Origin: an uncultured Bacteroidales bacterium | GTDB taxonomy: Bacteria; Bacteroidota; Bacteroidia; Bacteroidales; P3 | Length of the DNA stretch: 47,771 nt | NCBI GenBank assembly: GCA_900318665.1 | Contig: ONLQ01000014.1 | Location: forward strand, 1 to 47,771 | Direction: 5' to 3' | In this document: piece after piece, positions 47,323 through 47,771 of the stretch | Position numbering within the stretch: position 1 is the stretch's first letter | How the letters are laid out: every line of letters begins with the position of its first letter | Translations under genes and position numbers: made by a program | The notes under the pieces: generated by a model | Seen by the model: the letters and a program-made list of their open reading frames with translations, nothing else | The model's database searches: none | Told to the model about the DNA's origin: nothing

Positions 47323-47771
47323 ATGACACCCAAAGAACTTGGATTCTTTATGCCTGCCGAATGGCATCGCCATGCCGCCACATGGCTAACTTATCCTCAC
47401 AACGAGGACTCTTGGCCCGGCAAAATTGAAACCATTTTCCCGTCGTACCACCTTTTTATCAAGACCCTTGCTGAAAGCGAGCGTGTGTATATCAACGTTC
47501 GCGACAAGGAGATGCAGGAGCAGGTGGCCTATTTCAAGAGCGAGGACAAGCTGATTGAGGCCCAGAGAATTGCGGAGCGGACCAACTTTGACGTGGAGAT
47601 GATGCGGGAGACGGGATTCTGCTCCGGCATCGAGAACTATTCCCGGCAGCTGAACTTCACGAAGGCGGGGGATCCGCCCTGTACCCTGATGGATTATTTC
47701 CCCCAGGAATTCCTGCTGATCATCGATGAGTCCCACATGACCATTCCCCAGATCGGCGGCATGTACAACGG
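47323..47771 (+). CDS. aguA: Agmatine deiminase AguA N-terminus running in frame into a UvrB fragment (chimeric ORF)
   Basis: The start (MTPKELGFFMPAEWHRHAAT) is a clear agmatine deiminase, with MPAEWHRHAATWLTYPHN and WPGKIETIFPSYHLFIKTL, and the enzyme fits right after aguB: agmatine to N-carbamoylputrescine. After about residue 61-66 (47503-47522) the protein changes to an internal piece of UvrB: QEQVAYFKSEDKLIEAQRIA, CSGIENYSRQL, TLMDYFPQEFLLIIDESHMT and PQIGGMYNG. The joined frame stays open to the window end. Real fusion of these two would make no sense, so a chimeric assembly join is likeliest. The aguA call is firm for the first 60 residues only. Confidence 0.85.
   Translation, partial: MTPKELGFFMPAEWHRHAATWLTYPHNEDSWPGKIETIFPSYHLFIKTLAESERVYINVRDKEMQEQVAYFKSEDKLIEAQRIAERTNFDVEMMRETGFCSGIENYSRQLNFTKAGDPPCTLMDYFPQEFLLIIDESHMTIPQIGGMYN
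47510..47771 (+). other. uvrB: UvrB internal fragment of probable foreign (Bacillota-like) origin
   Basis: The encoded stretch matches the UvrB region after the damage-binding hairpin, with SGIENYSR, LLIIDESH and IGGMYNG. Codon choice also shifts: AGA and CGG for Arg, CCG/CCC for Pro, ATC-ATC for Ile, unlike the CGC/CGT style of the neighbouring genes. The left edge is uncertain by about 15 nt because of shared sequence around GACAAGGAGATGCAGGAG. Confidence 0.85.

Follow-up and report, generated by a model that had tools for sequence, protein, structure and literature searches.

Chimeric contigs are described as a recognised problem in metagenome assembly, at least as that problem is treated in the accounts cited here (PMC3100316, PMC10174551, PMC9007738). 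The interspecies chimeric contig, a misassembly of short-read metagenomes, is the described case that most closely resembles the locus considered below: in both, the source of the DNA switches abruptly inside a gene, at a short stretch that is similar in the two sources, and at the end of a contig. The present case differs in its gene pair only, and its reading frame happens to persist across the switch.

Two protein families are involved. The agmatine deiminases (AguA, PAD_porph family) resemble the first ~61 codons of the frame at the right end of contig C31, which adjoin an aguB-like gene and lie downstream of it; C31 differs from a complete aguA in that the remaining ~80% of the gene appears to have been removed by the join. 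UvrB (excinuclease ABC subunit B) is represented by 88 residues of the tail that follows, corresponding to family positions 262-349. The tail differs from a complete UvrB in being an internal fragment only, and very probably a foreign one, with another uvrB present on contig C70 of the same draft genome. Judged from sequence alone, the AguA-UvrB frame is almost certainly neither a gene fusion nor a horizontal transfer. We consider it highly probable that the frame is an artefactual join of DNA from two organisms, made either by the assembler or through a chimeric library fragment.

The open frame at the right end of the contig

The window (the whole stretch of DNA analysed, 47,771 nt) is the entire contig C31, one of the 73 contigs in a 2.30-Mb draft genome that is estimated as 93.59% complete and 0.76% contaminated. 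An open frame of 149 codons (47323-47769, + strand) runs without a stop until it reaches the contig end at 47771, and within it ~61 AguA codons are followed by UvrB to 47771. The features of this end of the contig are:

46393-47259, + strand: whole aguB-like gene (N-carbamoylputrescine amidase; TIGR03381, Pfam CN_hydrolase), directly upstream of aguA
47323-47505, + strand: apparently native 5′ fragment of aguA (agmatine deiminase), ~61 codons (NCBIfam, Pfam, same-genus AguA match)
47503-47526, + strand: zone of ~21-24 nt compatible with both AguA and UvrB, the probable join word (per-codon comparison, likelihood profile)
47506-47771, + strand: internal uvrB fragment, family positions ~262-349, Lachnospiraceae-like and very probably foreign, cut by the contig end (NCBIfam, DNA match)

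The aguB-like protein matches TIGR03381 over residues 3-280 (E 5e-96) with a score of 321, which is below the curated cut-off of 410, and matches Pfam CN_hydrolase above the cut-off of that family (E 6.7e-57). Residues 2-80 of the neighbouring frame match the NCBIfam agmatine deiminase models NF010070 (E 1.3e-13) and TIGR03380 (E 4.1e-11), and Pfam PAD_porph is found above its cut-off at residues 10-81. The NCBIfam scores of both the AguA and the UvrB pieces are far below the curated cut-offs, as those of fragments should be, and the name agmatine deiminase is given to the aguA piece by its best-matching models; a full-length relative from the same genus, for which these models are likewise the best match, also scores below their cut-offs, with 299 bits against 483 and 273 against 382.

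When a same-genus AguA is used to search the genome from which the window is taken, its sole match is at 47323-47529, where residues 1-69 of 342 align at 78% identity. Residues 70-342 (~80% of the gene) have no match anywhere in the assembly, and the frame thus does not hold a full-length AguA. Matches to aguA occur in 56 of the 59 genus genomes searched, this one included, and consist of one nearly full-length piece in 52 genomes (with an internal TGA in one of them), two pieces in two genomes, the start of the gene only in the genome considered here, and in one further genome a weak match alone, probably to another member of the family; three genomes have no match. The genuine remainder of aguA was apparently lost at this contig break.

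Stretch 47503-47769, taken alone, matches the UvrB models NF003673 (E 8.1e-40) and TIGR00631 (E 2.7e-39) of NCBIfam over 88 residues (profile positions 262-349), and matches no Pfam family at E 0.01. With 89 residues and an NCBIfam score of 137 against a cut-off of 743, it is far from a full-length UvrB with its helicase and UvrB domains.

The position of the switch was defined by a codon-by-codon comparison with 30 same-genus AguA genes, taken from the search of 59 genomes, and 91 UvrB loci (the 80 best relatives of the tail and others, including a few duplicates of one gene, for example L025 and L102). Strong agreement with AguA is last seen at the codon GAC at 47503 (0.94), and the first codon explained by UvrB alone is TAT at 47530, while the codons at 47506-47526 are, more or less, compatible with both. 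Agreement with AguA is uneven along the gene (for example 0.99 at 47491 and 0.11 at 47482), and across 47530-47550 it is 0.08-0.26, apart from a single codon with 0.51. For UvrB the values ahead of 47506 are mostly under 0.5, and those across 47530-47550 are 0.56-0.91. The likelihood maximum places the first UvrB base at 47506, with the twenty best break points all within 47501-47523, and over 47440-47599 the models without a break fall short by 134.8 log units for UvrB alone and by 143.8 for AguA alone. The sequence-only reading had described the frame as AguA-like up to about 47503 and UvrB-like from about 47522, with neither gap nor stop between them, and the profiles, the per-codon comparison and the break point all bear this out.

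Both genes use the same frame through the similar stretch, which is why the frame stays open across the join. The same reading had suggested that a short stretch, GACAAGGAGATGCAGGAG, could be common to both sources. It does fit the zone of ambiguity, in that 47503/47506-47526 is compatible with both families, but an exact copy was found in neither. Apart from the window's own stretch (three loci), the exact 23-nt word is absent from the 148 loci searched; each of the 30 AguA genes differs from it at 5 or more positions, and the best UvrB loci differ at 2-3. From these near matches we infer a join word that would have been common to both genes.

Origin of the UvrB-like tail

The tail was compared with UvrB relatives separately from the rest of the frame, a check that had been proposed together with the claim of a join, and it is Lachnospiraceae-like. 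In the species-genome collection at least 578 stretches encode relatives of the tail. The best 80 of these have 72-81% protein identity and are titled Lachnospiraceae, are titled with genera or groups of Clostridia (some of the genus titles being ones that we take to belong there), or carry no group; no Bacteroidota title is present among these best 80 of at least 578. At the DNA level the tail is matched in 327 of 397 genomes from the family of L025, titled Lachnospiraceae, with a best match of 85% over 265 nt. The donor species was not found among these 397 genomes, that 85% match being the closest. By comparison, uvrB genes of the window's own genus have 66-72% identity to the tail in nearly all matches, and 78% over one 86-nt piece.

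A second uvrB is present in the genome on contig C70, and its protein is 57% identical to a UvrB of the Lachnospiraceae type across residues 8-599. Since its DNA identity to the tail is 68%, as in the genus relatives, we take the C70 gene to be the native copy. The search for the rest of the foreign uvrB returned, in the parts of the genome beyond the window, just the C70 gene and three matches that are weak, at E 2.6e-5 to 3.3e-4.

Base composition also changes at the switch, as had been claimed from codon use. Under a 5-mer model, the tail (47527-47771) scores below all 482 overlapping fragments of the same size from the held-out half of the window. The GC content at third codon positions is 0.72 in aguB, 0.53 in the aguA piece (60 codons, a length at which the value says little) and 0.83 in the tail. 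A classifier of contig ends, with positions 1-47322 of the window and 80 loci related to the tail (Lachnospiraceae and kin) as its training data, was applied to 136 of the 146 contig ends of the assembly: to the window's two ends were added 1-kb pieces from 139 others, five ends read as N, and five right ends were left out. No other end among the 136 is as Lachnospiraceae-like as the right end of C31, whether by terminal score or by contrast with the adjacent inner sequence. Such a classifier favours the other parts of the window, and detects just those tails that deviate toward a Lachnospiraceae-like composition. The two sides of the switch therefore point to different source organisms, with a genus-like AguA side, a Lachnospiraceae-like UvrB side and a switch in composition between them, and the view that the tail is Lachnospiraceae-like and foreign to this genome is strongly supported.

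The same junction in independent genomes had been named as an observation that would speak against a join, and none was found. A 148-nt query spanning the join has matches in 27 of 120 genus genomes, the window's own included, and only in its own genome does a match extend across the join; none does so in the 119 others. The query is short, and the lack of any match in the other 93 genomes is weak evidence when taken alone. The exact 36-nt junction was found in no viral contig, in a search from which records of the window's genome were possibly excluded.

Other contig ends of the assembly

The right end of C31 appears not to be the only one of its kind. At least two other ends (the left ends of C27 and C21) look chimeric, and the left end of C23 is probably a further case:

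Contig C27, 1-1000 (L175): left end, likely chimeric; GH53 piece at 1-~409 and native HD-domain gene, on opposite strands
Contig C21, 1-1000 (L169), - strand: left end, likely chimeric; native protein joined in frame to a PanB fragment
Contig C23, 1-1000 (L171): left end, probable chimera; phage-like piece and native protein with CHU_C domain

The left end of C27 ranks second among the 136 ends in Lachnospiraceae-like composition. A C-terminal piece of a glycosyl hydrolase family 53 (GH53) protein is encoded in its first ~409 nt (E 1.2e-19). Its HD-domain gene has homologues in 26 of the 30 other genus genomes compared, and every one of them ends at query residue 165-210 of 284. The left end of C21 was picked out visually among the terminal frames (134 ends, read in part) and not via the composition ranking. 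Its join is near residue 256-302 of the frame: 27 of the 30 other genomes carry homologues of the native part, within frames of 1597-1701 residues whose matches end no later than residue 302, and the PanB piece matches PF02548 at residues 273-332 (profile 27-86, E 9.2e-21). PanB is matched at a separate place in 28 of the 30 other genomes. For the left end of C23, residues 9-86 resemble phrog_17422, a phage protein family of unknown function (E 1.1e-8), and the genus matches, among those listed, start at residue 54 or later. The presence of further ends that look chimeric suggests that the fault is one of the assembly and not of the aguA-uvrB pair.

The right end of C59 (L273) has a low composition score as well; this contig stops inside a 5S rRNA gene, an ordinary repeat break.

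The relevance of these observations is to data quality only. A gene caller would list a non-existent AguA-UvrB fusion protein, no intact aguA would seem to be present in the genome, and scans for horizontal transfer would score a false case at the end of C31. With at least two further ends that look chimeric, genes at the contig ends of this assembly need to be checked before claims of fusion or transfer are made. A warning against assigning genes to the right of the join to this genome has no object, as the contig ends inside the uvrB piece.

Exact terminal matches between contig ends are also present. Two are of 99 nt (C5 left with C22 left, and C37 left with C28 right; one is an overlap and one an identical end on both contigs), and others are of 93 nt (C58 left with C36 right), 32 nt and 22 nt; the ends of C31 have no match of 20 nt or more to any scored contig end. 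De Bruijn assemblers leave exact overlaps of one recurring length, and the matches of 99, 99 and 93 nt are probably a trace of the assembler's k, which would be ~99-100.

Possible causes of the join

A join between species at the contig end, as the sequence-only reading had proposed, is strongly supported by a frame that belongs to two protein families with a defined break point, by the Lachnospiraceae-like affinity of the tail, by the separate uvrB, by the aguA remainder that was not found, by a junction unmatched in other genomes and by the other chimeric-looking ends. Within this reading, the likeliest cause is that a de Bruijn assembler made a false join at a short word. In an assembly of a mixed community, the contig would have been extended from aguA into the uvrB of a Lachnospiraceae-like bacterium over a bridge of ~21-24 nt that was common, or nearly common, to the two genes by chance, through similar residues read in the same frame. 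Iterative assemblers start at a k of ~20-21. Because the zone of ambiguity is 21-24 nt, the simplest account would be a join through a short k-mer during one of the early rounds at small k, carried forward through the later rounds to a last k that we infer to be ~99-100. That the join was made at the k-mer level, as had also been suggested, is likely, but the lack of an exact copy of the word in either gene family (148 loci searched) counts against it.

A second possible cause is a join that predates the assembly, in which the two DNAs were brought together in a chimeric library fragment by ligation or by template switching during PCR. It would give the same finished sequence as a join by the assembler, the foreign tail of ~265 nt is within the usual size of library fragments, and the short similar stretch at 47503-47526 would favour template switching as well. 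A single chimeric molecule, however, would be expected only rarely to outweigh the true reads, and at least two further joins and the exact 99-nt overlaps of contig ends fit a graph-based fault somewhat better. We regard a library fragment as unlikely, though still a serious competitor to the assembler as the source of the artefact.

A biological origin is very improbable. It would require a real in-frame fusion of aguA and uvrB, formed in this population by horizontal transfer of a piece of a Lachnospiraceae uvrB into aguA, and the frame that stays open through the join without stop or gap is what such a fusion would produce; same-strand joins preserve the reading frame in about one third of cases. 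Against a real fusion stand the position of the switch at a contig end, the lack of a match across it in the 119 other genus genomes, the aguA remainder that is not found elsewhere in the assembly, the presence of another uvrB and the unrelated joins at other contig ends. Also missing from the product, as far as the contig goes, would be the greater part of AguA and the initial ~260 residues of UvrB.

That the frame is an AguA that diverged after residue 61 and merely resembles UvrB can be dismissed, for although a short AguA stretch (IFPSYH...) does resemble UvrB (IFPASH...) and the UvrB profile match reaches ~25 residues upstream of the join, such a chance resemblance is refuted by the UvrB match at E 8.1e-40 over 88 residues and by the 85% DNA identity to a uvrB relative over 265 nt.
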